Assembly (NCBI GenBank): GCA_025917655.1
Contig: CP084613.1
Span: forward strand, 2,048,001 to 2,112,000
Reading direction: 5' to 3'
From: Chlorella sorokiniana
Taxonomy: Eukaryota > Chlorophyta > Trebouxiophyceae > Chlorellales > Chlorellaceae
Length of the DNA stretch: 64,000 nucleotides
Shown here piece after piece: positions 4,018 through 52,506 of this stretch. A program made the position numbers and the translations under genes. How positions within the stretch are numbered: position 1 is the stretch's first letter; each line of letters begins with the position of its first letter. The notes under the pieces are model-generated. The model worked only from the letters and a program-made list of their open reading frames with translations. It ran no database searches and was not told where the DNA came from.

Positions 4018-4046
4018 CTCCCACGCAGGCTGCACAGCCGCTGCAC

Positions 4047-7000: not shown

Positions 7001-7800
7001 GTTGGGCTGCAGGTACGCGTCGCCGATGAGGGTGGCCTCTCCGACGCTGCCGTTGCCGAAAGTGATGCGGATGGGCTGCGGCGCCTGGCGCAGGTTGGTG
7101 AGGAGTTGCTGGTGCGGTGTGATGTGCCGGCTGGCTCCAGTGTCCACGATCCAGTTGTCGCTGATGGTGTTGGAGATGGTGGCGGCGGTGAAGGCGATGG
7201 CGCTGTACTGGGCGTTGACGCTGCGGTTGGAAGGCGGCGGGCGTTGGTTGAAGCGGCGGGCTTCCATGTCGCGGCGCTTCTTGTTGCACTCGTGGGCGTA
7301 GTGGCCAGGCTTGTGGCAGTAGAGGCAGGTGCCTTCGGCGTAGGCACGGGCGTCGCGGGCGGAGCGCTCGTCGCCGCGGATGCCGAAGGTGCGTGGTGGG
7401 CCAAAGTTGGGCGGTGGGCCGTTGAAGTTGGGCTGCCGCATGCGGGGGTTGTTGCTGCGGGGGCCATTGCCACGAGGGCCGTTGCTGCGGTTGATGCCGT
7501 TGAGGTTGCGGGGAGCGCCATTGCCGTTGGAGTGCCGGTCTTCGCGGCGAGGTTGGAAGGAGGCCATCAGGGCTGAGTCGGAGCTGCGGATGACGTCGGG
7601 CTTGGCGCGGCGTTGCTCGGCTTGCAGCAGGTGGGGCAGGATGTCATCCACGGTGAATGTGCCGGCGGAGGCGGAGGTGGTCTCGATGACGGTGACGACG
7701 GTGTCGAAGGTGGAGGGCAGGCCAGCTAGGACTTGGCACGCCACGTCGATGTCTTCGACCTTGTGGCCGGCGGCGTTGAGCTGGTCTCGCAGGGCCTTGG
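4047..7800 (-). pseudogene. Cop-1 pol and end of gag (fossil)
   Basis: The minus-strand coding region of Cop-1 runs from mid-gag to the RNase H end. Recognisable parts are the CCHC knuckle, protease DTGAS, integrase core, copia-type RT with YVDD, and the RNase H tail ending in YCRAAMGIA. Its right edge is the Cop-2 insertion point; gag continues beyond it at 10,754-11,116. A 30-bp LINE-B tail is inserted in the integrase part. The copy is broken by about one or two breaks. Confidence 0.85.
6447..6476 (+). mobile_element. Ultra-short LINE-B tail insertion in Cop-1 integrase
   Basis: These thirty bases carry only the last part of LINE-B (ttaaaccagtgtaac followed by ataac repeats). They are flanked by the perfect 6-bp duplication ATGAAG at 6,441-6,446 and 6,477-6,482. 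This is an extreme 5' truncation of a LINE-B insertion. Confidence 0.85.
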
Positions 7801-7916
7801 TGTTGGAATCAGCGCATCCTGCGCACGGTTCAGTCTGCCGTCCTGCATCCAGATGAGCTTGTACAGCCCGCTACTTGCCTACTCTGCGTTCAGCGACCCG
7901 TCTAGATCCATCTAGA

Positions 7917-8054
7917 AGCTTCCCTGTGCATTCTTCTACAAGCTTCCAGAAACTTCTAGATCCTTCCAGAAGCTTCTACACAATTCTGTGCATCCGCTTC
8001 TAGAAGCTTCTCCGACCTTCTCGAAGCTTCTACGGCCTTCCTTCCAGAAGCTTC
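7917..8054 (+). promoter_or_regulatory. Heat-shock-element-like array in Cop-2 5' LTR
   Basis: Five perfect GAAGCTTC palindromes and a GAAACTTC occur within 138 bp. Four of them extend to three alternating boxes (TTCnnGAAnnTTC). This is the nGAAnnTTCn pattern bound by heat-shock factor. The array lies in the probable U3 part of the LTR and is repeated in the other LTR at 10,241-10,378. The function is inferred from the motif only. Confidence 0.6.
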
Positions 8055-8374
8055 CATTGCTCACCTAATCCTGGTGTAGGGGCTCGCCAGAGGCTTACCT
8101 AATCCCGGTGTAGGGGCTCACCAGGGGCTCACCAAATAGTGCTGTGCATGCTTTGGCTTTCTACCTGGCGGCCTACTTAACAGGCCGCTCGCCCTCAGTG
8201 GCAACCATTCCATCCTTTTCTTTCAGCCTTTCTCAACAGCAGCCTCCATGTAACTTTCAGCCCTTGCTTGAGCCAGCGACAACTCAACAATGGTTATGGG
8301 CCCCAGCACGTACCCTCGCGCAGCTTAAAGTAAAAGTTACAGCTTGGAGCGCTCGGAGAAATCACAGCACAGCC

Positions 8375-8720
8375 TGTTGGAATACGATCAACGTCCCTAT
8401 ATGGCACCACAAATGGGCACATACTAATTAACCTCCGGGTCGGCGCTTTTAACAGGGTATGGGCCCCAATGCACTAGATGGGCGCACTGTCACATACACC
8501 TACAGATCGTGGGTTCGATTCCCATCACGGGACATCCAGGTTTCCGACCTGTAAAACGTTTCTCCACTCGGAAGCGGGGGAGCAGCCCTGCCTTCACGAT
8601 CGTGGTTAGGTACGAAGCGAGCATACGGAACGTTGCTCGGGGGAGTGTTGGAATACGATCAACGTCCCTATATGGCACCAGGGCACATACTAATTAACCT
8701 CCGGGTTGGCGCTTTTAACA
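8375..8720 (+). mobile_element. TRIM-1, miniature LTR element nested in Cop-2
   Basis: Two short terminal repeats (8,375-8,454, 80 bp; 8,646-8,720, 75 bp) read TGTTGGAATACG...TTTTAACA. The element is flanked by the 5-bp duplication CAGCC (8,370-8,374 and 8,721-8,725). The inner 191 bp have a primer-binding site (GGGTATGGGCCCC) right after the first repeat and a purine-rich tract just before the second. No coding capacity is visible. The interior also holds a tRNA T-arm-like stretch (GTGGGTTCGATTCCCAT) near 8,508-8,524. It appears structurally whole. Confidence 0.85.
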
Positions 8721-9239
8721 CAGCCGACATCGCAGTTTAGAGCCGCTGAGCACACGTGGAGCTTACAATGGCAGCCATGGCGGCATTGGGCAGCGATAGC
8801 GTGTCCCTGGGAGCGCCTGGACGTGGACAACTATGCGAGCCGGATGAGATACCTGCTCATCGCTCGAGGCCTGTGGGACGCCGTGGTTGGCGAGAGCATC
8901 GACGCCGACAAGGACCGCAAAGCATTGGCGCTGATTGGACTTCACGTCAAAGATCACCATCTGGCGACTTTGGAGCGGTGTGAGAGTGCCAAGATTGCGT
9001 GGGAGCGACTGTAGCAGATCTTCCAAGCAAGGAGCGACGCACGGATGCTGCAACTGCGAAAGGAGCTGGCTCAGCTGAAGATGGGCGTTCTGGAACCGGT
9101 GACCAAGTACACATCACGCGCCATCGAGATTCAAGACCAGCTGCGAGCAATTGGCTACGATGTGACAGATCAAGAAGTCGCATGGGCAGTATTGGCCGGA
9201 CTACCCCGAGCTACGACATGGTAGTGACTTTATTCTTTG

Positions 9240-9375
9240 TCACATGCGCGTTCGCGCTGCTGTTTGGCTGCCTCATCGGTCATGATGCTTCGTGGCTTCG
9301 GCCTACCTACGCTTCTTGAGATCCCCCACGTCTCAAGTGTAAGAGCACCCCCTCAAAAAAAAAAAAATTAAAAAA
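9240..9375 (+). mobile_element. LINE-A 3'-end insertion with poly(A) in Cop-2
   Basis: The last ~110 bp of the LINE-A 3' UTR (ending gtgtaagagcaccccct) are followed by an A-rich tail. The insertion is flanked by the 12-bp duplication ATGGTAGTGACT at 9,228-9,239 and 9,376-9,387. It gives clear evidence that LINE-A moves by target-primed reverse transcription and ends in poly(A). Confidence 0.9.
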
Positions 9376-9689
9376 ATGGTAGTGACTGCACTGGAGAACA
9401 CGAGCACCGGCAGCATGAAGATCAGCGACATCCTGCCCAAGCTGCAGCAAGCAGAGCAGCGGATGGAGCAGCCGACACGCCCACGAGAGGCGATTGCACT
9501 GGTTGCGGAGAACCGCGAGTGCTTCTACTGTGGCAAGCGAGGCCACCTGAGGCGCAACTGTCCCAAGAGGAGGCACAACAACCCAAGGCCCTCCGGAGCG
9601 CACAGCTATGGCGCCATCACCCTGTGAAGGCGGACAACGATTCAAATGAACGGCTGGCAGTCAGCAGACCAGCACGAGAATGAGTGACG

Positions 9690-9960
9690 TCTGGCAGCGC
9701 ATGCGGATGACGATCTGGCCGCGCATGCAGACGGTAAGACAGAAGTCTGGCAGCGGCATGCGGGTGACGACCTGGCAGCGGCATGCAGACTTGTGCGATC
9801 TGGCAGCGGCATGCGGGCGACGGCCTGGCAGCGGCATGCAGATCAGCAGACAGAGATCTGGCAGCGGCATGCAGGCAGCAGCAAAGAGCGGCCTGGCAGC
9901 GGCATGCAGATGAACCCGAGTTCTGGCAGCCTGGAACAGGCATGCAGACGAATTCAAGCT
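9690..9960 (+). repeat. Minisatellite with CTGGCAGCGGCATGC core inside Cop-2
   Basis: About nine copies of a 15-bp core (CTGGCAGCGGCATGC) are spaced 23-40 bp apart by variable linkers. The array lies between the gag zinc knuckle and the 3' LTR, and the same array is at 38,285-38,560. It has no regular spacer length and no conserved longer repeat. Confidence 0.8.
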
Positions 9961-10617
9961 ACCCGACAGAGAAACCGCGGGAGGCAGCACTCCGACTCAG
10001 CAAACGCCTACGAATCAGGATCCAATTTGGAACAGACCGAGACACATCAAGCCCAAAAGCATAGTTCTGACGATGAGCGACCACAGATTGGAGAGAATGC
10101 AGTCCGACAGCCTGCGTGGGAGATTGTTGGAATCAGCGCATCCTGCGCACGGTTCAGTCTGCCGTCCTGCATCCAGATGAGCTTGTACAGCCCGCTACTT
10201 GCCTACTCTGCGTTCAGCGACCCGTCTAGATCCATCTAGAAGCTTCCCTGTGCATTCTTCTACAAGCTTCCAGAAACTTCTAGATCCTTCCAGAAGCTTC
10301 TACACAATTCTGTGCATCCGCTTCTAGAAGCTTCTCCGACCTTCTCGAAGCTTCTACGGCCTTCCTTCCAGAAGCTTCCATTGCTCACCTAATCCTGGTG
10401 TAGGGGCTCGCCAGAGGCTTACCTAATCCCGGTGTAGGGGCTCACCAGGGGCTCACCGAATAGTGCTGTGCATGCTTTGGCTTTCTACCTGGCGGCCTAC
10501 TTAACAGGCCGCTCGCCCTCAGTGGCAACCATTCCATCCTTTTCTTTCAGCCTTTCTCAACAGCAGCCTCCATGTAACTTTCAGCCCTTGCTTGAGCCAG
10601 CGACAACTCAACACTTG

Positions 10618-10753
10618 CCCGTTCCTGTCTGTTGGCTTCGGCTGCAACAGGGATGGGCCCGTTTGCGTCTGAGTTGCATGGGCCCTATGCCCCGTCTGCG
10701 AGGGACAGTGATTGTCCCGAAGGCAGACGTTAAACCAGTGTAACATAACATAA
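10618..10753 (+). mobile_element. LINE-B 3'-end fragment at the Cop-2/Cop-1 border
   Basis: This 136-bp 5'-truncated LINE-B 3' UTR has the hairpin and ataac tail. It lies between CTTG (10,614-10,617) and CTTGG (10,754-10,758), so it inserted into the right-hand target duplication of Cop-2. Cop-1 gag resumes after it. Confidence 0.85.
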
Positions 10754-11116
10754 CTTGGCACGGTTGGTGAAGGCGGTGACAGTCTCGGTGGAGGCCATCT
10801 TCAGGGAGTTGAGCTCACGGCGCAGTTGGAGCTTGCGTGCGAAGGACTTGGCGGCGAAGATGCCTTGCAGAGTGGTCCAGGCTTGGTTGGCGGTGGTGCA
10901 GCGCAGGATGGTTGGCTGGTGGTGGGGCTTGACGAGGAGGCCGATGTAGGAGAGGGCGAGCTCGTCTGCCTTGATGTCCTCAGGAGTGGTTGGGGCCTCG
11001 GTGCTGACGACGGTGTGCCAGCACTTCTTGGTGGTGAGGAAGAACTTCATGTTTGCTGCCCACACTAGGTAGTTGTCCCAGTCCAGCCGCTCAATGGACA
11101 TGCCGTCGGTCGCCAT
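10754..11116 (-). pseudogene. Cop-1 gag N-terminus (fossil)
   Basis: The start of the Cop-1 gag lies on the minus strand. The ATG at 11,116 begins MATDGMSIERLDWDNY, and the sequence runs in the style of the copia gag family. It is separated from the rest of gag by the Cop-2 and LINE-B insertions. The leader between this ATG and the 5' LTR (11,117-12,051) is about 0.9 kb with no recognised gene. Confidence 0.8.
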
Positions 11117-12051
11117 GTTGTTCACGCTTGCGTGCAAACTGCTGTCAGCTGACGGCTGGCGGCCGCTAGCAGGCACCTTGTGCCTCTGCTAGTGCGTGCT
11201 CGGAGGTGCCGCCGGAGATGGCTGGCGGAAAGGTGGGGAAGGTCGGTGCCTTAGAATAAGTAGCCGGTACGTGGCACACGAGGCCAGGTACCGAACGGGG
11301 GAGCTGCGTGCCACACGAGGACAGCACAGCCCAGGCACCACCTTTGAGTAAATGTAGGAGAAGTGGAGGAATAGACGGGAAAGGGGGGCAGGACAGATGT
11401 GGATGGCAGCGGCGCTCGACGGCGCTAGGGCACTGCCAAAAGGAGAGTGCCCAGGGGGCAAAGGCAGCGGCGCACTTAGGCGCTGGGGCACTGCCAGTAA
11501 CGGAGGGGCCAGAGGGGCGGAGCAGCGGCGCACGGAGGCGCTAGGGCGCTGCTTGCACTTATCTTAAGTGGTTGTGTCAGCGTAGAGCTACGGCAGTGGG
11601 TTGAGGCAAAATGGAAGTTTAGTAACTTGGCGGGAGGCGGGGTATCGAGCTGGTCACAAGTGACCCAACTCGCTTACTCGCTGTCGGCTGCTACACAGCT
11701 GCTCAAGCAGCTGTCTCTTTGCCAGCAGGTGCTGTCGAAAGCAGGTTTAGGCTGCCGGAAAGCAGATTTACGCTGTCGGCTGCAGGCTGGCAGCTAGGCA
11801 GCAAAAGGCGCTGGCTGTGCGAGCGAAAGGCGGCGCTGCGCGAGCGAAAAGGCGCTGCTATGCGCGAAATATGCCGCAAGCAAAGGCGGGCTTAGTCTGA
11901 GAGGCTTCGGTCTGTAGGCGCCGTTCCGGAGGTCGAGGCGGAAGTGCTCGCGTGTGGTGCTCGGGCGCTGGCAGCGAGAAAAGGCGTCTGGGGTGACGGC
12001 AAGAGCGTGTGCCGGACTCAAGGGCAGAAGAGGGAGCTGGGGCCCATAACC

Positions 12052-12423
12052 TGTTGGATGGAGGCAGTTACAAAGTGCGCAAGAGTATGGAAAAGGGCGC
12101 AGAATGGCGCTAAGTATGCTGGAGCAGAACAATGCTGCTTTTGGCATTATTCCGGCATTTGCGGAGTGGTGCCCGAAGTGGTGGTATCCAGGGTGGCCAG
12201 AGGAATAACGGCGGGGCTCAGGTGCACAGAAATACATGGCGTTTGTGTCGATCAACTTAGAATAAAGTGGGGAAGCATAATCGAAGGGTGTCTGGGTGTA
12301 TTAGCTAAGTTGGGCTCATGCATGACGAAAATGTGTCCACGTCAGCAACGCCTGCCACGTGGCAGCTGGGGAGATGTGCTGCGGGTGTGCAGGCTGGACA
12401 TGTGGCTCAGTCACATCTTAACA
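12052..12423 (-). repeat. Cop-1 5' LTR
   Basis: This terminal repeat pairs with 3,659-4,017. On the minus strand it ends ATCCAACA and is followed by the primer-binding site GGTTATGGGCCCC. The target duplication GTGTC lies at 12,424-12,428. Confidence 0.9.
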
Positions 12424-12956
12424 GTGTCGTACGGCTGCGAGGTGTGGGCGCCGCAGTTCTTGCGAGGGGGCGGGGAGAATGCTTCCGAGCGGCTCCTGCG
12501 CTCGTTCTTGCGGCACGCGATGGGGCGCCTGCCGCAAAGCACTCCCGCTCCTGTGGTGTTGGCCGAGGCAGGGTTTTACCCCCTTGCCACTCACTGGGGC
12601 AAGCTGGTGACCCGTTTCTGGAACAGGCTGGTGGGCCTTCCAGATACGCGCGTCACCAAATGGGCACTCTTTGAGCAGTTAGACCTTTTGCGGGCGCACG
12701 GTGGGGCGGGTGGGGTGGCCCGCCAGCCGTGGGGACCCAGGTTGTAGGATACCTTCGCAGCCTGGGGTTGGGTCCCCTTGATGGTGGGGAGCCCTGCCAG
12801 GTCGATGTTGGCGAGGCGTGCACCCTCGCTGACGAGGCTCACGTCGAGGGCGTCCTGCAGGGAGCACCATCCCAGCCCAAAGTGCAGTTTTACTGCGCTA
12901 GTGTGAGGGGGGCTCACGCGTGATACGTACTGCCGTCGCCCGCAATCGTACCTGAC
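12424..12956 (+). mobile_element. LINE-B ORF continuation, right of Cop-1
   Basis: The LINE-B reading frame interrupted at 3,658 resumes here (VSYGCEVWAPQFL). It covers the region between the RT and the zinc finger, with frame changes in G runs. It stops at the codons for YLT, where LINE-A 3' UTR sequence takes over at about 12,957. Confidence 0.85.
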
Positions 12957-13777
12957 GCGAGATCCCGGCAACCGCCAGACTGGGGCAGGCAGCGGCACAA
13001 CAGGGCAAGGCAAAGAACTGAAAGACCCGAGGCGAGGATGGAGCAACCCACCACGGAAGAGACGCAAAGGCAACCAGGCCAAGACAAAAAAAAAAAAGGG
13101 GGCCGTACTGGGACAGGGAGAAGGGGGCGTCCAGGAGGGGGCAGGCTAAGAAAAGGAGGGGAGCCATGGAAAGGGAAGGTGCAAGCCACTCAGAAAGGGG
13201 CGAGGAAAGTGTGGAAGCGTGCTGGAGGGAGCCATGGGAACAGGGACAAGTCAACGCAGGAGCCGAGCGCTGGGGAACCGTCAACCAATGGATGCAAAGA
13301 GCAAGGACGGGGCAAGCCGAGGGCTGGCGGGCACATGACTACCGACAGCAAGGGCATGTACGCGCTCCGCAGGTGTGCCTGCCGGCCCGCTAGGACCGGC
13401 GGCGCGGGTGCCGCAAGGCAAGCCGGGCGGGGGGCGGCGGACCCCGCCGGCACGTTGCCACACACGGTGGCGAACGCCCACCACCCGCCGCGCCACTACA
13501 CACGCACTTGCCGCCATCGCCGCTGCCGCTGCCGGCCGCCCAACTGCCGCCGCCTGCAAGAATGGAAGGAGCCCCAGCAGCGCGCATGTAAAGATGAACA
13601 GAAGTCAGGCTGTATCGCATGGCCCAAACGGGAGTGGAAGCAGCACGGTCGAGTATAAAAATAACAAGAAGGCCGCTGAGGCCGTGGGAAAGCGCCCGCA
13701 AAGAAGAGGAGGGCCCCAGCCAGAAAAGGGCAGGGCGGAGAGTTAACCGACGCCCGCGCGTGGTGCAGCCCGTGCCA
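12957..13777 (-). mobile_element. LINE-A 3' UTR unit, truncated at its 3' side
   Basis: This is a minus-strand LINE-A 3' UTR. Its upstream end (right) starts at the junction ATGGCACGGG right after the neighbour's poly(A) tract. Its own 3' end is missing, and it fuses to LINE-B at 12,956. It contains the plus-strand motif gtataaaaataac near 13,653-13,665 that is present in every unit. Confidence 0.85.
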
Positions 13778-14830
13778 TTTTTTTTTTTTTTTTTTTTTTA
13801 AGGGGGTGCTCTTACACTTGAGACGTGGGGGATCTCAAGAAGCGTAGGTAGGCCGAAGCCACGAAGCATCATGACCGATGAGGCAGCCAAACAGCATGTG
13901 ACAGCAAGATGGGGCATGCAGTCACGGGGTGGTACGCAGATTTTTTTCTTTTTGTTTTGTGTGTGTATGTGTGTTCGGTATGTCGCTGTGAAAGCAGATG
14001 AAACGCGAGATCCCGGCAACCGCCAGACTGGGGCAGGCAGCGGCACAACAGGGCAAGGCAAAGAACTGAAAGACCCGAGGCGAGGATGGAGCAACCCACC
14101 ACGGAAGAGACGCAAAGGCAACCAGGCCAAGACAAAAAATAAAAAAGGGGGGCGTACTGGGACAGGGAGAAGGGGGCGTCCAGGAGGGGGCAGGCTAAGA
14201 AAAGGAGGGGAGCCATGGAAAGGGAAGGTGCAAGCCACTCAGAAAGGGGCGAGGAAATCGAGTGTGGAAGCGTGCTGGAGGGAGCCATGGGAACAGGGAC
14301 AAGTCAACGCAGGAGCCGAGCGCTGGGGAACCGTCAGCCAATGGATGCAAAGAGCAAGGACGGGGCAAGCCGAGGGCTGGCGGGCACACGACTACCGACA
14401 GCAAGGGCATGTACGCGCTCCGCAGGTGTGCCTGCCGGCCCGCTAGGACCCGGCGGCGCGGGTGCCGCAAGGCAAGCCGGGCGGGGGCGGCGGACCCCGC
14501 CGGCACGTTGCCACACACGGTGGCGAACGCCCATCACCCGCCGCGCCACTACACACGCACTTGCCGCCATCGCCGCTGCCGCTGCCGGCCGCCCAACTGC
14601 CGCCGCCTGCAAGAATGGAAGGAGCCCCAGCAGCGCGCATGTAAAGATGAACAGAAGTCAGGCTGTATCGCATGGCCCAAAAGGGAGTGGAAGCAGCACG
14701 GTCGAGTATAAAAATAACAAGAAGGCCGCTGAGGCCGTGGGAAAGCGCCCGCAAAGAAGAGGAGGGCCCCAGCCAGAAAAGGGCAGGGCGGAGAGTTAAC
14801 CGACGCCCGCGCGTGGTGCAGCCCGTGCCA
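13778..14830 (-). mobile_element. LINE-A 3' UTR unit with poly(A), about 1.05 kb
   Basis: This is a full 3' UTR-only unit. On the minus strand it runs from ATGGCACGGG (14,830) to a poly(A) tract seen as T's at 13,778-13,799. The next unit starts with the same ATGGCACGGG. The shared 5' breakpoint points to tandem duplication of one unit. Confidence 0.88.
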
Positions 14831-16898
14831 TTTATTTTTTTTTTTTTTTTTTTTTTTAAGGGGGTGCTCTTACACTTGAGACGTGGGGGATCTCAAGAAG
14901 CGTAGGTAGGCCGAAGCCACGAAGCATCATGACCGATGAGGCAGCCAAACAGCATGTGACAGCAAGATGGGGCATGCAGTCACGGGGGTGGTACGCAGAT
15001 TTTTTTCTTTTTGTTTTGTGTGTGTATGTGTGTTCGGTATGTCGCTGTGAAAGCAGATGAAACGCGAGATCCCGGCAACCGCCAGACTGGGGCAGGCAGC
15101 GGCACAACAGGGCAAGGCAAAGAACTGAAAGACCCGAGGCGAGGATGGAGCAACCCACCACGGAAGAGACGCAAAGGCAACCAGGCCAAGACAAAAAATA
15201 AAAAAGGGGGGGGCGTACTGGGACAGGGAGAAGGGGGCGTCCAGGAGGGGGCAGGCTAAGAAAAGGAGGGGAGCCATGGAAAGGGAAGGTGCAAGCCACT
15301 CAGAAAGGGGCGAGGAAATCGAGTGTGGAAGCGTGCTGGAGGGAGCCATGGGAACAGGGACAAGTCAACGCAGGAGCCGAGCGCTGGGGAACCGTCAGCC
15401 AATGGATGCAAAGAGCAAGGACGGGGCAAGCCGAGGGCTGGCGGGCACACGACTACCGACAGCAAGGGCATGTACGCGCTCCGCAGGTGTGCCTGCCGGC
15501 CCGCTAGGACCGGCGGCGCGGGTGCCGCAAGGCAAGCCGGGCGGGGGGCGGCGGACCCCGCCGGCACGTTGCCACACACGGTGGCGAACGCCCATCACCC
15601 GCCGCGCCACTACACACGCACTTGCCGCCATCGCCGCTGCCGCTGCCGGCCGCCCAACTGCCGCCGCCTGCAAGAATGGAAGGAGCCCCAGCAGCGCGCA
15701 TGTAAAGATGAACAGAAGTCAGGCTGTATCGCATGGCCCAAACGGGAGTGGAAGCAGCACGGTCGAGTATAAAAATAACAAGAAGGCCGCTGAGGCCGTG
15801 GGAAAGCGCCCGCAAAGAAGAGGAGGGCCCCAGCCAGAAAAGGGCAGGGCGGAGAGTTAACCGACGCCCGCGCGTGGTGCAGCCCGTGCCATTGCTGCCT
15901 CGCCGCTTGAAGGGGCTGCCCCGCCTTCACGCTCCATACTCAGCAGCGGCCCCGCAGGAGGGAGAGCCGCAGGTGAGGCTCCACCAGGGCGAGCGGAGGC
16001 AGGGGAGAGCTGCAGGCGTGGAGGGGGCAAGGGACCAAGGCAGGACGCAGGGGCAATTGCAGGCACCCGAGACGCAGAAGGGCCCTCCACTGGTGCGGCC
16101 ACCGGGTGGGACAGGCTGAAGCGCAACCGCATAGCACCCGCCTCCACAACACAAAGCGCGCCCCTGTGGGTCCACCGCGCTTTGAACTGGCCCATACGGA
16201 GGGAGGTGTCGCGGCCACGGAACCACTCAGCATAGGTGCCATCCAGCCGGCGCATGTTGTGCGTGGCCCGCGCCCAGTCCCGCTTGATGGCAGCCAGCAC
16301 CGCTGCTACCGTGGCACCGCACACGCTGGCCGGCGAGATGGGCTGGCCCGCAAGAGTTCGCCGGCCGCGCATCTGCCACACAGCGTAGAGGTAAGCGGTG
16401 CGCAGGTGTGCCCACACGTGGCGAAGACGGGCGGGTGGGGCCCAAGTGGCATGCTCATCTGCAAGAAAGACACGGGGACAGAGGGGAGGAGGGCGCACAC
16501 CCGAGACAGCCGCAAAGACACGACAGACCCACTCGGCAGCAGCGGCCACGGCGGGGCAGAGCAAGAATGCATGGGTCAGCCCATCAAGGGGCGGATCCGC
16601 TGCTGCCGCACAATCACCGTGCTGGCACAACGCATCTGCCGCTGGCACGACCCGAATGTGGCAAAGGAAGGCGCCCACATACAGGCACCCATGCAACACG
16701 CGGTACGCCACAGTGTACTGCTCACGGGGCAGGTCTGCCTCGCGCAGGCGGCGCCATACACCGCGCACCGCAGCGCGCTCCGCTTGGGCAGCCTCATTGA
16801 GGCCCGCCGGCGCTGCCGCTGCATCCACTGTGTCGTCCCTCAAAGGCCAAGCTGGTGGTGGGGCCGGCTGTGGCTGAAGCTGCTGCAACTGCTCTTCT
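14831..16898 (-). mobile_element. LINE-A, 5'-truncated copy with ORF2 C-terminus
   Basis: The minus-strand LINE-A copy ends in poly(A) (T's at 14,831-14,857). It carries a 1-kb 3' UTR and an open frame (15,857-16,888) for the last ~340 residues of ORF2. The frame includes the zinc-finger-like C-x4-C...H-x4-C (CQHGDC...THAFLLC). The 5' end is truncated at about 16,898, where the tail of the next copy abuts. Confidence 0.88.
15857..16888 (-). pseudogene. LINE-A ORF2 C-terminal fragment
   Basis: An uninterrupted frame of about 343 residues matches 17,920-19,704 and 44,133-45,202. It covers the post-RT region: a basic, tryptophan-containing segment (AAIKRDWARATHNMRRL), the CQHGDC/THAFLLC zinc motif and a proline/alanine-rich tail. 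It has no RT or endonuclease and so is non-functional alone. The apparent start is only the first Met after the truncation. Confidence 0.8.
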
Positions 16899-19800
16899 CA
16901 AAAAGCTCTTACACTTGCTCTTACACTTGAGACGTGGGGGATCTCAAGAAGCGTAGGTAGGCCGAAGCCACGAAGCATCATGACCGATGAGGCAGCCAAA
17001 CAGCAGCGAACGCGCATGTGACAGCAAGATGGGGCATGCAGTCACGGGGGTGGTACGCAGATTTTTTTTTTTTTTTTGTTTTGTGTGTGTATGTGTGTTC
17101 GGTATGTCGCTGTGAAAGCAGATGAAACGCGAGATCCCGGCAACCGCCAGACTGGGGCAGGCAGCGGCACAACAGGGCAAGGCAAAGAACTGAAAGACCC
17201 GAGGCGAGGATGGAGCAACCCACCACGGAAGAGACGCAAAGGCAACCAGGCCAAGACAAAAAATAAAAAAGGGGGCGTACTGGGACAGGGAGAAGGGGGC
17301 GTCCAGGAGGGGGCAGGCTAAGAAAAGGAGGGGAGCCATGGAAAGGGAAGGTGCAAGCCACTCAGAAAGGGGCGAGGAAATCGAGTGTGGAAGCGTGCTG
17401 GAGGGAGCCATGGGAACAGGGACAAGTCAACGCAGGAGCCGAGCGCTGGGGAACCGTCAGCCAATGGATGCAAAGAGCAAGGACGGGGCAAGCCGAGGGC
17501 TGGCGGGCACACGACTACCGACAGCAAGGGCATGTACGCGCTCCGCAGGTGTGCCTGCCGGCCCGCTAGGACCGGCGGCGCGGGTGCCGCAAGGCAAGCC
17601 GGGCGGGGGCGGCGGACCCCCGCCGGCACGTTGCCACACACGGTGGCGAACGCCCATCACCCGCCGCGCCACTACACACGCACTTGCCGCCATCGCCGCT
17701 GCCGCTGCCGGCCGCCCAACTGCCGCCGCCTGCAAGAATGGAAGGAGCCCCAGCAGCGCGCATGTAAAGATGAACAGAAGTCAGGCTGTATCGCATGGCC
17801 CAAAAGGGAGTGGAAGCAGCACGGTCGAGTATAAAAATAACAAGAAGGCCGCTGAGGCCGTGGGAAAGCGCCCCGCAAAGAAGAGGAGGGCCCCAGCCAG
17901 AAAAGGGCAGGGCGGAGAGTTAACCGACGCCCGCGCGTGGTGCAGCCCGTGCCATTGCTGCCTCGCCGCTTGAAGGGGCTGCCCCGCCTTCACGCTCCAT
18001 ACTCAGCAGCGGCCCCGCAGGAGGGAGAGCCGCAGGTGAGGCTCCACCAGGGCGAGCGGAGGCAGGGGAGAGCTGCAGGCGTGGAGGGGGCAAGGGACCA
18101 AGGCAGGACGCAGGGGCAATTGCAGGCACCCGAGACGCAGAAGGGCCCTCCACTGGTGCGGCCACCGGGTGGGACAGGCTGAAGCGCAACCGCATAGCAC
18201 CCGCCTCCACAACACAAAGCGCGCCCCTGTGGGTCCACCGCGCTTTGAACTGGCCCATACGGAGGGAGGTGTCGCGGCCACGGAACCACTCAGCATAGGT
18301 GCCATCCAGCCGGCGCATGTTGTGCGTGGCCCGCGCCCAGTCCCGCTTGATGGCAGCCAGCACCGCTGCTACCGTGGCACCGCACACGCTGGCCGGCGAG
18401 ATGGGCTGGCCCGCAAGAGTTCGCCGGCCGCGCATCTGCCACACAGCGTAGAGGTAAGCGGTGCGCAGGTGTGCCCACACGTGGCGAAGACGGGCGGGTG
18501 GGGCCCAAGTGGCATGCTCATCTGCAAGAAAGACACGGGGACAGAGGGGAGGAGGGCGCACACCCGAGACAGCCGCAAAGACACGACAGACCCACTCGGC
18601 AGCAGCGGCCACGGCGGGGCAGAGCAAGAATGCATGGGTCAGCCCATCAAGGGGCGGATCCGCTGCTGCCGCACAATCACCGTGCTGGCACAACGCATCT
18701 GCCGCTGGCACGACCCGAATGTGGCAAAGGAAGGCGCCCACATACAGGCACCCATGCAACACGCGGTATGCCACAGTGTACTGCTCACGGGGCAGGTCTG
18801 CCTCGCGCAGGCGGCGCCATACACCGCGCACCGCAGCGCGCTCCGCTTGGGCAGCCTCATTGAGGCCCGCCGGCGCTGCCGCTGCATCCACTGTGTCGTC
18901 CCTCAAAGGCCAAGCTGGTGGTGGGGCCGGCTGTGGCTGAAGCTGCTGCAACTGCTCTTCCTCAGCATGCTGCCGCTGCGCCACCCGTTCAAAGACGGCA
19001 AGGCGCTGCCGCTGGCCCGGGCGCTGACACGGCAGGAGATCCACCTCCCACTCTGCTGCCCGCCGGCGAGACATGACCCGCTCGTGAAGCCGCGTGTCGT
19101 AGGAGGAGGCCCAGCGTAGCTCCAACGCTTGCAAGCCCGTGGCGGCAGCAGACGGGCCTGGCTCATCTGCAGGCTGCCGCCACAGGGCTGGCCTGCAGCC
19201 CGCCGAAGGAAGGTATCGCGGGCCGCAGCGCTGCCGGGCTGCCAGGTGGATGCGCCGCTGTGTGGCTGCCTTAACGGTGAACCCCAAGAGGTCCACGCTG
19301 CCAAAGCCCCACACGGTGGGGTCCACGAAGACGGAATCCCACGCGCCGAGCAGCATGGGGCGGCCGCCCCCACCACGCAGCAGGGCTGCCATACGGTGCC
19401 AGCCGGGAGGGCCGGGCGCCGCCGAGAGGGGGCGCAGGCTGCCATCACCCCGGACAGCGTAGTGCACAGGGCCGGGCAGCCCCGGCAACTGCCGGCGCAC
19501 CCACTCGGCCGCCCCGTCGCGGCAAAGCTGCCACCCCGCCGGCGGCGGCTGGTCCGCCACCGCACGCCAGGAGGCAGGCACGCAGCCCCAAGCAATATGC
19601 AAGGCCAGAGTGGGCCCCGCGAGCATCGCATCCCGCAAGCGGCCCACCGTATAGATGCCAGCTGCGGCCAGCGGCTCCCACGCCGGGCTGACGGGGTCGA
19701 GCACGGCGCCATCAGGCCCGCGGACCTGGCGGTTGTGGAAGAGGCGCTCCGCCAGGACTTGGTGGTGTGAGAGCCGCGGTGGGGGAGGAGGCGGTGTGGA

Positions 19801-20337
19801 AGCGTTTGCTGGAAGCCGCTCAAATAAGCTGCCAGACGGGGTGGGAGGAGGCGTGTAGTGACCTGCAGCCCGCTAACAGCAATGGCGGGCCCAAGGGAAG
19901 GGACGGCATCCACCAGGCGCGCCGCAACAAGGAGCTTCCAAGCATGACGGCCTGGCTGCAGAAGGCGGGCGGTGACCTTGGCACGCAAGCAATCAGCATG
20001 CACGTCGGGGCAACCAAGTTAATGCCCCCTCCAACCACGGCAAGGCAGCAGTATGGCGGGCTGGGTGGCTAACGGCAGCACCACGCAGGACATCAGAGGG
20101 TGACATGCCACCCACAAAAGAGAAAATGACGCTAACAATGCGGCGCCACATGGCAGGTGGCGGGCGCACAAAGGTGGCGTGATACACCACCAGGTGGCTG
20201 ATGAGGCCTTGGCTGCACACCTGCATCCATGGCGGAGGGACTGCATCAATAAGCTGCCGCGCACACACGCCAAACTTGCAAACATGGTGCGCTCCCCAGC
20301 CGAGCACTGCACAACTGCCCCACACGGGCCTGCCCAC
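16899..20337 (-). mobile_element. LINE-A, 5'-truncated copy next to SPT16
   Basis: This is the most upstream copy of the cluster. Its 3' UTR is 16,899-17,919, and its ORF2 3' half runs to about 20,337. Its 3' end has a doubled aagtgtaagagc and no long poly(A). Its 5' truncation falls directly after the last recognisable SPT16 exon. I did not find a target duplication. Confidence 0.85.
17920..20337 (-). pseudogene. LINE-A ORF2, region after the reverse transcriptase
   Basis: The longest single frame, 17,920-19,704, has about 594 residues; related coding sequence continues to 20,337 in other frames, so there are at least two frame changes. The zinc motif C-x4-C...H-x4-C lies near residues 345-370 of the long frame. 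The region before it matches the linker seen in L1-type elements. The RT catalytic YxDD and the APE domain are absent because of 5' truncation. The same region is found at 44,133-45,601 plus 51,275-52,096, split by insertions. Confidence 0.8.
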
Positions 20338-22387
20338 CTACAGCCACATTAAAGGTCATGCCAGCCTGGACAGGCTTGGAGTTGCTGGCACTGAGCTGCT
20401 GGGTGCTGTCGCGCAGCTCCAGGCCAATGGCGGTGCCCACATTCTTGGTGAGGGAGCCCAACAAGGCCTCCTGTCCCTTAGCCTGCGTTCTTACAAGGGG
20501 ACCCGGGAACCTGAGGATTAATGGCATTTGTTGTCAGCCAGGCAGTCGCATGTGCGTACATGCTGGAAATTACCCAACAAGACTATGTTTAGAACACATA
20601 TGCTGGGCGTGCAAGGACACACCTTGAGCACCCCCACCACAGCCTCATACGCCGCCGACATGGGCGCCCTTCCACCAGCGCAGCAATGGCAGCAGCCTGT
20701 GCCTCAACGATTGCCGCATACTGCTCCTCTTGCTGCTTGGAGGGGTCCACGAAGTAAGTGCGCGCCACATTAGCACAGTAAGAAGCGTACCTGTTGGGCA
20801 ACGGGAGGAGGAGGCAGACGGGTTTGTTTCATGACGGGTGTTGCACCAGCTGCGAGCAGCTGTACTCTGTGACTCATCTAGAGGCTGGGTGCCTGCGGAG
20901 CAGGACCCTACGAATTCATCTTCTACACCCCATCTTCTAGCCAGCCCCCAACCCTGCAACACCTTGCCCCCAGGGAGCACACGATGACTCCGTAGTGGAT
21001 GTGTGTGTCCTTGGAGATGGAAGCCAGACGCAGGTCGTACTCCCCCAGACTGCACCAGCGGCGGATAGGCTATATCCACCAGGTCGGCCTGTGTATGGGG
21101 GGGACAGGCAAGGGGTCACTGCCGGCCCCGGGGGGGTCAGGGCCCTCGGGAAGGAGGGGGACGGTGTGGGAGAAGGGGCCAGCGGTGGAATAAACAATGC
21201 ATCAAATGGGGCAAGGGCCTGCCATGAAGAAACAAACCAAATGCTGAAGGGTAGCTTGCAGCGTTGTACCTTGAGCTTGATGTCCATTTTAGAAGGCTCG
21301 CTGATCACCTCCTCAATGCGGTCCGCCAGCTTGCTGTGCCGCACCTTTTCTCCTCATCGATAATGCCTGCAAGCAAATCAGCCGGTGTTGCAAGGCTGTT
21401 TGTATTTGTAATGCTCTGATATACAATGCTCGTGCAGCATTGTATGACCAGGGCAGCAGCTTTGCAACAGCAACTTCAAATGGGGCAGGTGGTTATAGCA
21501 GACAAGGCACTCTCACCCTCCAGCTGCGGCACAGTGAATTTCTGCAGTGCATTGCTCGCCAAGTAGGCTGCCTTGCGCACATTCTTCTGCTCTTCACTGT
21601 CCTTAGGGGCCAAAAGGGCAGCCAAGTCCGCAGCCATGTCTGTGGTAGCCAGGCCCGACCCCACCAACGCAGCCAGCCAGGCTTCAGGCACCGCGCCCTG
21701 TGGCTTTTCCTGCAGCTCAACAAACAGGGAATGTGATGCGCCAGGCTTCCCACCTTTGGTGAAAGTTGTACTACCCAAAAGCGTCGATCAGCGCACCTTT
21801 GGAAGCATGCCCACAACAGGGTTATCTGTTGCGCATTTGATGGCTGCCAGCAACGATTCAATCTGCACAGCGCCATCCTCCTTCTTGGGCTTTGGGTGCA
21901 GGCGCAATGCAACACCAGCAGCTGTGCATGCATCTGACAGCTGAGCCAGAATGTCGGTCTTCTTGGGACCTGCCAGTGCATGTAACTCCGACTTGGTGAA
22001 AACAAAGACGGTCTCTGCACCGGGGAACACCGACGAGCATAATGAGACCAAGCGGGGCCGATTGTCAGGGACTGAAGGCTCGGCCACAGGTGGGTCCATA
22101 GCCACCCTACTGTACCTGTGAACTCGTAGCCCAGAAGCCATAGATGAAGGCTGGCAGACTTCGTATAGGTGATCGCCTCCGTCACGGACCCCACAGCCAC
22201 AGCCAGAGCAGTGGCATCGGACCACAAGACGCCATCCTGCGATTTCCCGAAACAAACTCATCTTGCAACGGACGTTCAATGCATAAAAGCTCAAACTCCC
22301 TGCTGATCAGAAGACATTGCTCACCCTCCACCCGTCGTAGAGGGCCTTGAGGCGCTTTTCAAATCTGTTTGAATCGATAGACACCAT
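20338..22387 (-). pseudogene. SPT16: FACT complex subunit SPT16, 5' part only
   Basis: SPT16 with SSRP1/POB3 forms the FACT histone chaperone, which moves H2A-H2B in the nucleus. Eight exons are recognisable: 22,325-22,387 (MVSIDSNRFEKRLKALY), 22,116-22,236 (YTKSASLHLWLLGYEF), 21,797-22,014, 21,517-21,745, 21,270-21,366 (IIDEE...HSKLADRIEE), 20,963-21,088 (AYPPLVQSGG), 20,623-20,790 (SYCANVARTYFVDPSK) and 20,338-20,482 (AGMTFNVAVG). Together they encode about 389 residues, the N-terminal M24-peptidase-like domain. The family is about 1,050 residues, so the dimerisation, middle and acidic domains are missing; LINE-A starts right after the last exon. Exon 5 is one base short in an A run. Exon 6 has a one-base gain or two-base loss in a G run. 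Exon 7 is one base short in a G run. A different exon-5 acceptor (at 21,352) could restore that one. The start at 22,387 fits the family; an upstream in-frame Met at 22,528 is possible. Confidence 0.85.
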
Positions 22388-23268
22388 ATCAACTGGGTCC
22401 CGCCACCCACCGCTTGCGCCTTTTGAAACGGTGGGGCGGTGCAGGGAGGTCGCGAAAGAACGGGCTGTCACGCCAGCCTGGCTTGCTCGCGGGCCAGCAA
22501 GGCGGCGTTGTGCTTTCTGCCGGAACAACAGCTAGCTTCTCGCGCCTGGTCCACCAAGAAAGGCTTGGCGGCAAGGTCTCCAAGGCTGGCGGCGTACTTG
22601 CAGTATATGAGGCAAACTGCATTCAGTATATGAGACTAGACTGCACTGTTCAAAGTTTGGGACGTGTGCTGCCAAGCGCACAGTGAGCTGCTTGCTTCGC
22701 ATGCATGCACGACTGTGCTGAATGCAACCTGACCAGCCGCCTGTGAATGTTTGCAGCGCCACAATCGCTCTTCTCCTGCTGCAGCAGTTAACAGTATCTC
22801 ATGCATTGCCTGCCATGCTGTCAGCATCTCTGAACCACTGACACAGCTGATAGGCACAAGGCACGTGCCTACACGCTGTTGCCAGGGCCTGCATGGCATT
22901 GCAGGCAAAATCCTCTGCGTACTGTGATAACATCATTGTGTGCAAAGCAAAGTGAAAAGCACATCGTTCATGATAAAACGATGCCTTATTGGTTGCCTGC
23001 TACAAGAACTTTCATTCTGTGAGGGTGATCACTTCAAGAATTTTCCTGGAATTTTACTGGATGCCAGGAGCTGCGGTTGAATATGAGAGCCGTTTACGGT
23101 GCTGTGCTGCAGTCCACGCCCTCAGTCCAGACGACAGTGCAGTGCGTCAACAGCAGCATGATGTAGTAAGGCTTTGCATCGCTTCAAAGGTGGATCGCTG
23201 TACAGATGACAAGCTGCTGATACACGAGATCTTGCACATGGTCCCGGCAGGCAGTTGATGGTTGCCAC
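22388..23268. other. Intergenic region between AP1M1 and SPT16
   Basis: The 881 bp between the AP1M1 stop and the SPT16 start hold the AP1M1 3' UTR and the presumed SPT16 promoter. The minus strand has two CTCATATACTG motifs about 20 bp apart near 22,600-22,635 that could serve as TATA-like elements. I saw no transposon and no coding sequence. Confidence 0.5.
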
Positions 23269-25544
23269 TCAGTTGCCACCCATGCGAATCTCATACGAGC
23301 CTGCCTGCGTCAAGTACCTCACCCTGCAAAAGCAACAGCAAACAAACAGCGCTGACTCACGAAAGTGGGATGCTGGATCAGCTGCCCAGAATTCTGCCAC
23401 ATTAAAGCCAGGCTACTTACCACGGCAAGGCCTGATAACCACTGCGCTCAATAACCTTCAAGTACCGAATTTGAATGCCGCTGCAGTCAGATGAGCCAGG
23501 CAGATGGGCATGAGATGCTCGAATAGATTAATCTGTCAGAATGCAAGCGCAGACACTGCCAGACGCAGGAAGAAGTACAGCTTTCAACACTGGACAAGCG
23601 GGACATAGCATGAGCATATGTGAGAGCACATAATTACACTGCTGCAAAAGCGCACCTGACACTGTAGTAAGGAATCTCAAACTTAACCTTGATGGGCGGC
23701 AAGCGACCCTGGTGCTCCTCCTCAGCTGCCACAGATGGCAGCCCAAACTTGCACCGCAGCAGGAACTCGCGGCCGCCAGGGAAGTTCTTTATTTTCCACA
23801 CCAACGCATCCTTCTCCGGAGCATAGACTGCCGTGCCCTGCACCTAGGCAAACACACATTGTTATGTTGTTGTTGCAATGATGCACGGCAATCGCATTTG
23901 AAGCTGAAATCATTGGTTTGGCGAGGCCTTCAACGGCAGCTTCGGCTTGCCTGCGATGTGCGCACGGTGGGAGAGATTGCATCGGGCGGAAGCGGCAGCA
24001 AGATCTCTACCGATGTTGCAGTACTGCGTTCCTTAAATTGTGACCGAGCCTTCACGAGGTATTCCGTGCGACTGCGGCTGTGCTTGTCCACATGACACTC
24101 CACCCAAATCAACGGCTTGATGTTCTGGCTTAAACGGTAAGTCCTGAACAGGAGTGCAATGTTGACGAAACATGAGAGATAAACCTGACATAGGAGCAAC
24201 CTGAGAACAAGTGCTTTCTCACATGAGATCAAACGCCCCATCGGGCGGGATGAACGATATTGTCCTGTCTCGCTCAAAAGATGCCAGGCGCACGCACTGG
24301 TGGAACTTGATGTCCTCCAAGTCCACTGCCTTCTGTCGCCCGCTCCGCCCTTGCGATTCAAACAGAACCTTGTCATTTACGCCGCACTTGCACTCGGGCT
24401 GCAAGGTAGGTGAGGCAAGGGAAATGGAAATGCAATTTTGGTTGTCTTGACACTGCAACGATCCCTTCCTGCCTTTGGCAATACTGACTGTTGTTGGACG
24501 ACTGCTTGCTTAACAACTGCAGCGCTTCCGGGGCTCACCATGCCGCTGAGATAGGCACGCATTTTGAGAGCACCCACCACCTCACTTCGCACCACAGTTC
24601 CATTGCTGTTGACGAGCAGGTTAACGCTCTCAACAACATCAAGGAAAACCTGCAGACGGGCAGCAGGATAGAGGCCACAATAGTAATATGGGCTGCCTGA
24701 TGCGCAGCCGCATATCCACTTTGCTGCATGGAGCTGGTGCCTGGCGCTTGCACGATGTGCTGCGCCACTGTTGCACATAGCACAAACCTCATTTTTTTTG
24801 TAGAACAGCCCCTCCTGGCGCCATGAGACCGCATTGGTGACTGCCATGGGCGGTCGCGCCTGCACTGCCATGCGATGAGCATCCGTCTTGATAAACTCAG
24901 ATAGAATTTTGGCTTCCGTGAACTGTGGGTAGCCGAAGTCCATTATCTCATCCAGCAGCTCATACGCAATGACAAAGTTGTCGCGTAGGGACTCTTCTTC
25001 CAACTGTTCAGGTTGAGATGTGGAAAGGGGGATCATGTGGGTCAGCACTGTACGCGCCAGCTTGAAAACATGCACTCGTCTTGGTGCAAACACACATGCT
25101 ACCTTCAGCAAGCAAGCTCACCTCATGGAAATAGTGCTTGAAGATTTCCACAAGTTTGTGAAGAAAGACAAGCGCAGCGGCTGCATTAACGTTGCCCTTT
25201 GTCACGGCCAAGATGTAAAGGTTAGAGTACTGGACATACAGATAGCTGAGTGACCCATCCTGCAGGACAGGTGCTGCGCCGCCCCCTTCGTCAAGCTCAT
25301 TCTGCTTGGCAGTGAACCGGTCAGCCACTTTTGCCAGCGGCACATCGCCCCTGCAGCAGGTGGGGGTTGTAGCAAGGCTGGGCAGTGGTGGAAGCGTGGC
25401 TGCTCGGGAGGTTCATACAGCCTGCAGCGTGCGAGCCCAGTTCTCCTGAACATAAGACGTGATCCGCTTTTGACCGCGCCTGTAGTCTCGCTGCAGAACG
25501 GGCTTTCCGCGCTGATCAAGAAATAACACTGCCGATATTGACAT
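23269..25544 (-). CDS. AP1M1: AP-1 clathrin adaptor complex, mu subunit
   Basis: This is the medium chain of AP-1, which selects YxxPhi cargo for clathrin vesicles at the trans-Golgi network and endosomes. Nine exons on the minus strand: 25,480-25,544, 25,122-25,350, 24,788-25,003, 24,539-24,649, 24,223-24,398, 23,951-24,143, 23,656-23,837, 23,421-23,480 and 23,269-23,323. They sum to 1,287 nt, or 428 residues, the usual length of plant AP1M. The start [17 protein letters not shown] is the family N-terminus. A longin domain (about residues 1-140) is followed by the mu homology domain ([47 protein letters not shown]). The end [15 protein letters not shown] is also typical. All exon phases agree and no frame break was seen. 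Introns 1 and 6 need GC donors. A mu-4 or mu-2 identity is unlikely from these motifs. Confidence 0.95.
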
Positions 25545-26159
25545 CCTGACTGGGCAGGCCGAGTGGCCCTTGGGCGGTGCAACTGCCCCGTGCAGGCGAG
25601 CAGTATCACCGCGAGTTGTTGAAAGACGAAATGGAGACTATCACGCAGTTGCTGCGACAACGGGCACTTGAAAAAGAGTGAGCTCTGCCACTGCACAAAG
25701 AAGATGGTGTCCTATTAACAGCAGAGCAACCGATTCTTATTATAAGCCTTTTACGATGTCCTATTCATGTGTAAAAAAACAATTCGCATGCCCCGGTATG
25801 GGTTTCTGCAGTACGTTGACTGTACTGCCATGTTTGTTCGATCTAGCCGCCGAAACCGGCTGAATCGACGCCCAGGGGAATAACGGGGGCTCAGGTGCAC
25901 AGCACGGCACGGCACAGGTGTCAATCATAAAGAGAGGCAAATTTCGGGGTATTGGGGCCCTGCTGCGGGGGCGGCGGGTCTAGCGGCCTGCGCCCTAACT
26001 GAGCCTCGCGCAGCGCAGCCGCTGGCCCAGCTGCTTGGCCGACATGGACCAGGGCGCATAGCGCTGCCGCCGCTTTTCCATGCTGTGCACGGCGAGGGGA
26101 GCGGAAGGTTGCGCGGTCCAGTTCTGACGGGCGCCAAATTTTCACATGGGGGCATACAG
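25545..26159. other. AP1M1 upstream region with a copia LTR relic
   Basis: This region holds the 5' flank of AP1M1. At about 25,866-25,945 a stretch (ggggaataacgggggctcagg and following) resembles the Cop-1 LTR with many differences, so it is an old LTR relic. I saw no convincing gene in the remainder. Confidence 0.5.
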
Positions 26160-26830
26160 GGCCGGGTGCGTTTCCATTCACAGCGGCAGAATACAGCTGG
26201 CGGTGGCTGCCAGCTGTCAGCTGGGGAGTGGTGGGGGACGTTGGGGAGGGCATTGTTACAGCACAAGGACGCGGACCAGTGCTGTTTGCTGGCAACGTTA
26301 ACGCCACACCCAGACGCCCTGATTGGGTGGCTTGTGACTTTGATGAATCATCAGAGTCCCAGAGATCATCATCTAATGTGGCTCATGAGCATAACGTCAC
26401 CCTCCAGGACGCGTTCACTGTGGGCAAGGAAGGGGCCTCCCCACAAGCGTGCCGTGGCAGTCGCAAGATCGTGGCACAAACATTGGTTATGCCAATTAGT
26501 TGCTTACATTTGTGTCAGTCGACGGGCATGCGCATTGCCAATGGCAGAGTAGCGGGCAATTAGACAGGCGCTTGCACTTGCTACCTTGTGCGAGGGGGCA
26601 GCAGCCAGGTTGACTTCTTCCTGGGATGCCCCCGTGTGTTCCCCCTCCTCTCACGCCTTGTTGTGCGGGAAATTGACGCCCATTCCGATCACTGCCGAGT
26701 CAGCCTGCGGGTGTCGCTCCCTGCGGGGGTGCTGGGTGCACACCCCAGGGCCGCAGAGGCTGAGCATGGGGACACGTTCGTTTATACCTTGCCTGATCCT
26801 GTGGCACCCACCTGGGACCCTGCCTGCGGG
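26160..26830 (+). mobile_element. LINE-B endonuclease (APE) fragment
   Basis: Two stretches resemble an AP-endonuclease-like domain: VLFAGNVNATP near 26,275-26,310 (the GDxN site) and QVDFFLG...HSDHCRVSL near 26,605-26,715 (the SDH site). An in-frame TAG near 26,562 and frame changes show decay. It ends at 26,830, where the 3' part of LINE-B is joined out of order. Confidence 0.7.
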
Positions 26831-27428: not shown

Positions 27429-27733
27429 TCCACACCTTTGCAGAGGAACACCCCGTGCAGCCTGGCGCCAGCCGCGCTTTTGGGTTGCACTCAAGGCCCA
27501 CCTCTCCAGCCACGTTGTGGCATTCCCTGCAGCCCGGCGGCGGCAAGTGGATGCCGCGAGGCGCACGTGGACGTCCTTTGGCATTGCTTCGGCGAGTGCC
27601 CCACACGCTGGTTCCACATGTTGGACCGCAACGCCTTACCAAACCAGCCCTTGGCAGAGCTCTTGCACCCATCTGACCCAGCGGCCCCAGCCGCAGATCT
27701 CAGCACGCCCGCGGGCCGCGAGCTTGCCTCAAC
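27429..27733 (+). mobile_element. LINE-A ORF2 fragment (plus strand)
   Basis: This is coding similarity to the LINE-A segment between the endonuclease and RT. HTFAEEHPVQPGA is followed by LWHCFGE.PTRWFHMLDRN, as on the minus strand at 55,600-56,110. Part of the segment is missing compared with that copy. The Cop-3 LTR starts at its right edge. Confidence 0.75.
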
Positions 27734-27901
27734 TGTTGAAAGTGGTTCCTGCGAACCCTCTGTTCAGCCTGCCGACTTGCATGTGCCCTTGTGTGTCATC
27801 GTCTGTCATCATCTGTCCTTGCTTGTCCGCGTCTGTCCTTATTTGTCTCGGTCTTTCTCTAGACCCTTCTAGAAGCTTCTCGACCCGACTTCTTCGGGAC
27901 A

Positions 27902-43106: not shown

Positions 43107-43138
<32 letters not shown>

Positions 43139-52502: not shown

Positions 52503-52506
<4 letters not shown>

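Follow-up and report, generated by a model that had tools for sequence, protein, structure and literature searches.

A LINE inserted into its own copy, with a multiplied poly(A) joint, in a transposon nest of Chlorella sorokiniana of possible centromeric setting

The locus examined is a 64,000-base window of Chlorella sorokiniana contig CP084613.1 (positions 2,048,001 to 2,112,000), in which a retrotransposon of the long interspersed nuclear element (LINE) class, here called LINE-A, lies within the 3' untranslated region (UTR) of an older copy of itself. The counts and maps of elements below refer to this window, which has a guanine plus cytosine (GC) content of 61% and, by self-comparison, is largely repeated inside itself. 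Family shares were obtained with a small library cut out of the window itself, the family edges being set by us; on this assignment copia elements make up 33.8% of the window, LINE-A 26.9%, a second LINE (LINE-B) 16.7%, a second long terminal repeat (LTR) element 9.0% and a further copia-type gag piece 2.9%, and 89% of the 64 kb consists of transposon pieces. The 10.8% without a family comes to 6,898 bases, 6,478 of which form one stretch at 20,341–26,818, where host genes are found. A tRNA scan of the window with bacterial settings and a comparison with Rfam at gathering thresholds gave no matches.

Nesting of LINE-A in its own copy is seen as one event, copy X in the 3' UTR of the older copy Y. 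Copy X (43,136–59,434, minus strand) is near full length, with ~6.86 kb of its sequence present, and retains the 5' UTR, ORF1-like frames, the endonuclease (EN) region of ORF2, the C-terminal part and the 3' UTR; the 5' UTR is rich in (TTG)n, and the ORF1-like reading starts at a methionine near 59,007 and changes frame en route. The poly(A) of X, 29 bases long (43,107–43,135, minus strand), is followed by the 3' copy of a 13-base target word, ATGGCACGGGCTG, and is joined directly to ATGGCACGGGCTGCACC, the downstream half of Y. This 3' part of Y, unit D' (41,551–43,106, minus strand), is broken by a LINE-B 3' end at ~42,182–42,913. At the 5' end of X stands a 67-bp inverted piece of Y (59,435–59,501, plus strand), which holds the second ATGGCACGGGCTG at 59,489–59,501, and beyond it the 5' side of Y (59,502–63,783, minus strand), made up of 59,502–59,566 and 63,532–63,783 and split by a copia element. 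X lies in Y with the same 13-base word at both edges (43,107, minus strand; 59,489, plus strand), and these are two of the eight sites of the word. X itself is broken by a solo LTR with the target-site duplication (TSD) CAGGG, a young copia element, LINE-B at 53,705–55,482, a 137-base LINE-B end and an inverted dimer of LINE-A units; the reverse transcriptase (RT) core of X is missing where the dimer sits, and a motif scan of the LINE-A frames in the window found no RT core.

The fusion of the X tail to Y gives a joint in which poly(A) is directly followed by ATGGCACGGG. This sequence occurs eight times in the window, and in four cases it stands behind poly(A) in the LINE sense: three of these are minus-strand sites, at ~13,778, ~14,835 and ~43,107, and the fourth is a plus-strand site, at 52,502. 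An earlier note, drawn up from the letters of this DNA, had named these four places, and the arrangement is seen at each; it had assigned all of them to the minus strand, which holds for 13.78, 14.83 and 43.1 kb but not for the plus-strand joint at 52.5 kb. Three further sites lie in uninterrupted LINE-A copies (..GGCAGCAATGGCACGGGCTGCACC..) at 15,883, 17,946 and 44,159, and the remaining one in the inverted piece at 59,489. Poly(A) is 22–31 bases long at each of the four joints, and the tail at 14,835 reads (A)23-TAA-ATGG. The tails at 13,778 and 14,835 are 1,057 bp apart, and the words at 13,778, 14,831 and 15,892 are spaced by 1,053 and 1,061 bp.

Two of the joints fall between 12,955 and ~20,335, where four minus-strand LINE-A copies follow one another from left to right as D, C, B and A. 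Unit D (12,955–13,777) is the Y-type 3'-UTR part of a target copy and has lost its own 3' end at a LINE-B junction; its ATGGCACGGG is abutted by the poly(A) of unit C (13,778–13,799). Unit C (13,800–14,834) is an extra 3'-UTR unit of ~1,057 bp with its tail, and its ATGGCACGGG is abutted in turn by the poly(A) of copy B, then TAA (14,835–14,857). Copy B (14,858–16,897) comprises the C-terminal part of ORF2 and the 3' UTR and is the counterpart of the 3' part of X. Copy A (16,916–20,335) holds the part of ORF2 that lies behind the RT and reaches almost to the 3' end, without poly(A); its 5' limit is uncertain and was placed from the frames at ~20,250–20,335, at the start of SPT16 sequence. The description of every copy as ending in poly(A) fits B and C, but not D, which is cut at 12,955, nor A, which ends ..AAGTGTAAGAGCTTTTTGAG.

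The joint has been multiplied together with its surroundings, by a direct duplication of ~16.6 kb at 99.4–99.6% identity. Positions 1–13,590 match 28,597–42,181 at 99.63%, and the match goes on as 14,639–16,897 against 42,914–45,173 at 99.43%, which sets the 14.83-kb joint against that at 43.1 kb; 13,586–14,832 also matches 42,914–44,169 at 98.97%, which sets the 13.78-kb joint against the same one. Because their flanks align at 99.63% and 99.43%, the 43.1-kb joint and those at 13.8 and 14.8 kb belong to the duplicated segment. The two duplicates differ by the extra unit C in one, absent from the second segment copy, and by a LINE-B insertion in D' in the other. On the right-hand side, copy 1 of the segment runs into LINE-A copy A and the host genes, and copy 2 into the remaining part of X.

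The joint at 52.5 kb belongs to the inverted 3'-UTR dimer (52,097–53,583, plus strand), which consists of an X-type unit (I1), poly(A), a Y-type unit (I2) and poly(A), and which equals 13,778–15,235 inverted, at 97.7%. When the units were aligned, G at both columns 155 and 303 was found only in D, D' and I2, and a box of 11–13 bases was absent from C, B, X and I1 and kept in A and I2, D and D' ending short of it. From these columns and the box pattern, the dimer is an X-type followed by a Y-type unit, the order of the X/Y joint. A transcript that read through the X/Y joint may be its source, target DNA having been lost. Unit C is X-type; the variable columns are few and agree both with unequal exchange and with another insertion at the same word. 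The joints had previously been taken as successive separate units, each 5'-truncated at the same point. Their independence is not shown. Separate truncation at one base on four occasions is rejected, since both left-hand joints can be aligned with the 43.1-kb joint and the 52.5-kb joint repeats the same layout in inverted orientation. The common start stands, but is more readily accounted for if these units are the downstream half of one target site than by repeated 5' truncation.

For assignment of LINE-A, its EN region was compared with PDB sequences, of which 12 were matched at E ≤ 1. Seven are named as L1 ORF2 or L1 endonuclease, two are the L1 EN variants LR1 and LTX, and three are pantothenate kinases; the best matches are L1 endonucleases, at 4.5e-7. 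Judged from the EN region, LINE-A has an L1-like endonuclease of the APE type. With the C-terminal part of LINE-A only two chance-level PDB matches were obtained (E 2.5 and 2.6). Among viral contigs, no relative was confirmed of the C-terminal part (two pattern matches, none kept), of the EN region (13, none kept) or of the LINE-B RT (three, none kept); copia pol gave no pattern match there, and the exact 23-base LINE-A tail had no match. Poly(A) of 22–36 bases is present at five LINE-A ends, with an A-rich run of ~22 at a further, short copy. In a 2013 table of green-algal L1 families, poly(A) is listed for 2 of 15, Zepp and L1-1_CR (PMC3747384).

Zepp and ZeppL are reported as L1 LINEs that insert into copies of themselves and form clusters at putative centromeres (PMC3446292, PMC8226300), and the nesting of Zepp is described as targeting of existing copies (PMC8226300). 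LINE-A resembles Zepp of Chlorella vulgaris and Coccomyxa subellipsoidea C-169 in its L1-like EN, its poly(A), its nesting in its own copies and its runs of 3' ends. In both systems the element exceeds host DNA in GC content, LINE-A at 66% against 55% in the host island, and Zepp at 61% against 53% as given for C-169 (PMC3446292). The Zepp label is right for the behaviour of LINE-A, as distinct from its descent. The proposal of a Zepp-type cluster is upheld to this extent, namely for an L1-like LINE with poly(A), insertion in its own 3' region and runs of 3' ends, but the nest is not built mainly of LINE-A, which at 26.9% ranks below copia at 33.8%, copia and LINE-B together making up half; unlike in Zepp clusters, LINE-A is about a quarter of the nest. 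ZeppL-1_cRei (L1-1_CR) of Chlamydomonas reinhardtii is likewise a poly(A)-tailed L1, clustered at putative centromeres (PMC8226300, PMC3747384); it is described as the chief component of the centromeres there, to which other transposable elements contribute, whereas LINE-A is not dominant here. A subtelomeric position, as for the Zepp cluster of Chlorella vulgaris, finds no support: there is no run of at least two TTAGGG, TTTAGGG or TTTTAGGG units on either strand of the 64-kb window.

The short LINE-A 3' end with an A-rich tail lies at 9,240–9,375 (plus strand), a 119-bp match including the tail, and interrupts the gag-like part of an LTR element. It is flanked by a 12-bp direct repeat, ATGGTAGTGACT, at 9,218 and 9,376, with ~10 filler bases behind the first, and was duplicated along with the segment, its second copy being at 37.8 kb. 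A short interspersed nuclear element (SINE) with a LINE-A tail was considered at this place, as SINEX-3 of Chlamydomonas is reported to have its tail in common with L1-1_CR (PMC3747384); this was rejected in favour of a LINE-A end truncated on its 5' side, with a direct repeat of 12 bp and ~10 filler bases. Both LINE-A target words start with ATGG, of which the first A may count to the tail; two cases are too few for a rule, and ATGG is common anyway, with 575 sites in the window on both strands.

The remaining elements are inserted in LINE-A and in one another. A copia element in X (45,602–51,274, minus strand) has LTRs identical at 354 of 354 positions and the 5-bp TSD CCAGG. The copia in Y (59,567–63,531, plus strand) has LTRs identical at 353 of 353 positions and the TSD CTGCA; its halves meet at ~62,581–62,585, where a large internal deletion lies, and because its LTRs are identical despite this deletion it may have moved recently. 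The copia in LINE-B (3,659–12,423, minus strand; LTRs 349/352 identical, TSD GTGTC), which was scanned for pol domains through its duplicate (32,639–36,235), holds the second LTR element at 7,801–10,613, and the order of nesting there is LINE-B, copia, LTR element, LINE-A from the outside inwards. This second LTR element, present also at 36,393–39,210, is 2.8 kb long with LTRs of 489 bp (488/489 identical in both copies); a gag-like zinc-knuckle motif was seen by eye, and the one frame scanned had no Pfam match. TSDs of 5 bp were found at four of the five LTR insertions inspected, the fifth (7,801–10,613) not being clean. LINE-B in X (53,705–55,482, plus strand) has the tail ..AACATAACATAAC and no TSD that was recognised; Two other LINE-B copies yielded RVT_1. 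Head-to-tail runs of LINE-B also occur, at 984–3,076 and 29,578–31,667, where two successive pieces each stand directly behind the ..AACATAACATAAC tail of the preceding piece and each continue with TGG.

Between copy A and the next transposon pieces lies the host island (20,336–26,818, minus strand; GC 55%), with AP-1 mu and the 5' part of SPT16. The exon pieces were chosen by eye from the frames, with Pfam and without a gene model. AP-1 mu is complete-looking, with nine exon pieces in order (25,544–23,281) and a stop behind the last. Adjoining it are ten exon pieces of SPT16 (22,363–20,336), which span the protein from its N-terminal lobe to roughly halfway, and the gene breaks off at the border with LINE-A. 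With their introns, these genes point to a eukaryotic host, and the element types suggest a green alga. No further part of SPT16 turned up in the window, nor was room seen for its 3' half, because the sole family-less stretch of at least 60 bp outside the island is 27,732–27,912.

The composition of the nest was set beside centromeres described in other green algae. For Chlorella sp. SLA-04, centromeres of 37% Copia, 22% L1 and 11% RTE-X are reported (PMC11005252), against 33.8% copia, 26.9% LINE-A and 16.7% LINE-B here, LINE-B not being equated with RTE-X; the mixture is closest to this arrangement and further from a pure Zepp cluster. The same source reports Chlorella centromeres of 19–104 kb, shows CENH3 chromatin immunoprecipitation sequencing for C. 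sorokiniana, and gives Copia, L1 and RTE-X in centromeric regions of tens of kb for SLA-04, C. sorokiniana NS4-2 and C. pyrenoidosa DBH (PMC11005252). Differing from those mixed centromeres, the window contains an island of host genes. The LTR elements with a pol gene in the window are copia-type. Elements with RLG names belong to Gypsy. Asterochloris mediterranea is described as having one retrotransposon-rich locus on most chromosomes, formed by RLG_Beelzebufo and RLG_Kyoko, which carry a chromodomain; the pairing of an autonomous with a non-autonomous LTR element at those loci is a likeness to the window (PMC12542154).

The best explanation of the whole is probably LINE-A self-insertion, followed by multiplication of the joint, in what may be a mixed-element centromeric setting. 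The structure is real, with good support for an origin by LINE self-insertion. LINE-A, as an L1-type poly(A)-tailed element, would have put itself into its own copies by target-primed reverse transcription, and X inside Y, with the X poly(A) fused to the Y 3' UTR, gives the head-to-tail joint of poly(A) and ATGGCACGGG in one step. The 67-bp piece of Y next to X would have been turned round during the insertion or afterwards. The segment of ~16.6 kb bearing the joint would then have been duplicated, a third unit of ~1,057 bp added in one segment copy, either through unequal exchange or through another insertion at that place, and the dimer brought to stand inverted in the RT region of X. Copia elements, LINE-B and the second LTR element would have gone into LINE-A and one another, and these insertions account for the 89% of the window that is transposon pieces. 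As to setting, a centromere or pericentromere of the SLA-04 type, with mixed Copia, L1 and second LINE, appears by analogy the most likely, at about an even chance.

Several observations weigh against this interpretation. The 5' ATGGCACGGGCTG of X stands in the inverted piece, and for this reason the target duplication of X has to be read through a rearrangement. The counterparts B and X differ at columns 92–93, 155, 350, 686–687 and 874, and at column 155 B has the Y-type G. The EN region of LINE-A scored 21.5 bits with Pfam Exo_endo_phos, under the cut-off of 24.5 bits, and LINE-B finds its best PDB matches in R2 proteins (5.3e-8) and then in L1 (2.3e-4), too little to name its clade or to call it RTE-X. 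The short copy in the LTR element indicates that LINE-A targets are not only LINE-A. A host-gene island of 6.5 kb lies inside the nest, its GC content of 55% is below the 64–67% reported for Chlorella assemblies (PMC11005252), and Auxenochlorella is reported to lack repeat-rich centromere candidates (PMC12636532).

The nest could instead lack centromere function and be an ordinary island of heterochromatic transposons, or mark a rearrangement breakpoint; the self-insertion would then be real but incidental. This alternative concerns the setting only and is compatible with the mechanism; we regard it as a serious possibility, at somewhat under an even chance. It would accommodate a complete-looking AP-1 mu and part of SPT16 within the nest, the breaking off of SPT16 at the LINE-A edge and the LINE-A insertion in an LTR element, and centromeres rich in transposable elements are not universal, as Auxenochlorella illustrates. 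It fares less well with a transposon share of 89% sustained over 64 kb, with the likeness of the Copia, L1 and second-LINE mix to SLA-04 centromeres, and with the single retrotransposon cluster reported on each Coccomyxa chromosome, strictly one per chromosome (PMC3446292), and on most Asterochloris chromosomes.

As regards the joints, the near-equal word spacings (1,053 and 1,061 bp), the 98–99% likeness of the units and their unequal number in the two segment copies would also be expected if the repeated joint were wholly a DNA-level tandem duplication of the ~1,057-bp unit, a young satellite, with no self-insertion. We consider this unlikely. Each of the four joints carries poly(A) of 22–31 bases, the X/D', C/D and I1/I2 joints each join different LINE-A subtypes, and X has 5'-UTR and ORF1-like sequence and sits between two ATGGCACGGGCTG; moreover, duplication multiplies a joint and does not create the first one. 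An assembly artefact, with repeats duplicated or mis-joined, is suggested by the 13.6 kb repeated at 99.63% and by the stopping of host genes at the repeat edge, but it is very improbable given that only one of the duplicates has the LINE-B insertion, the edges of which carry the short repeat ATGTA on our reading, that they are unequal by one LINE-A unit, and that their 13,600 aligned positions contain 25 mismatches and 25 gap bases. Hardly credible is a fixed stop of RT, or start of an internal promoter, at ATGGCACGGG that would truncate independent insertions at the same base: C, D, D' and I2 do all start there, but other copies start elsewhere (B at 16,897, A at ~20,335, the short copy at ~9,240, I1 at 52,097 and X at ~59,434), and the start of D and D' follows from their being the downstream half of a target.

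Self-insertion of LINE-A with multiplication of the joint might also be read as the birth of a centromeric satellite, although we hold this to be doubtful: a self-inserting L1 would make, in a single retrotransposition step, a 3'-UTR dimer joined by poly(A), and unequal exchange and segmental duplication would expand the ~1,057-bp unit within a centromere of copia and LINEs. On that reading, one array would combine two routes to a centromere, that of Zepp and that of satellites. The sequence itself shows how a tandem repeat can be seeded by one self-insertion, which bears on a possible change from transposable-element centromeres to satellite centromeres. If the locus is a centromere, a Zepp-like self-inserting LINE would be sharing it with copia and a second LINE, a case between the single-element designs of Coccomyxa and Chlamydomonas and the mixed design of Chlorella.

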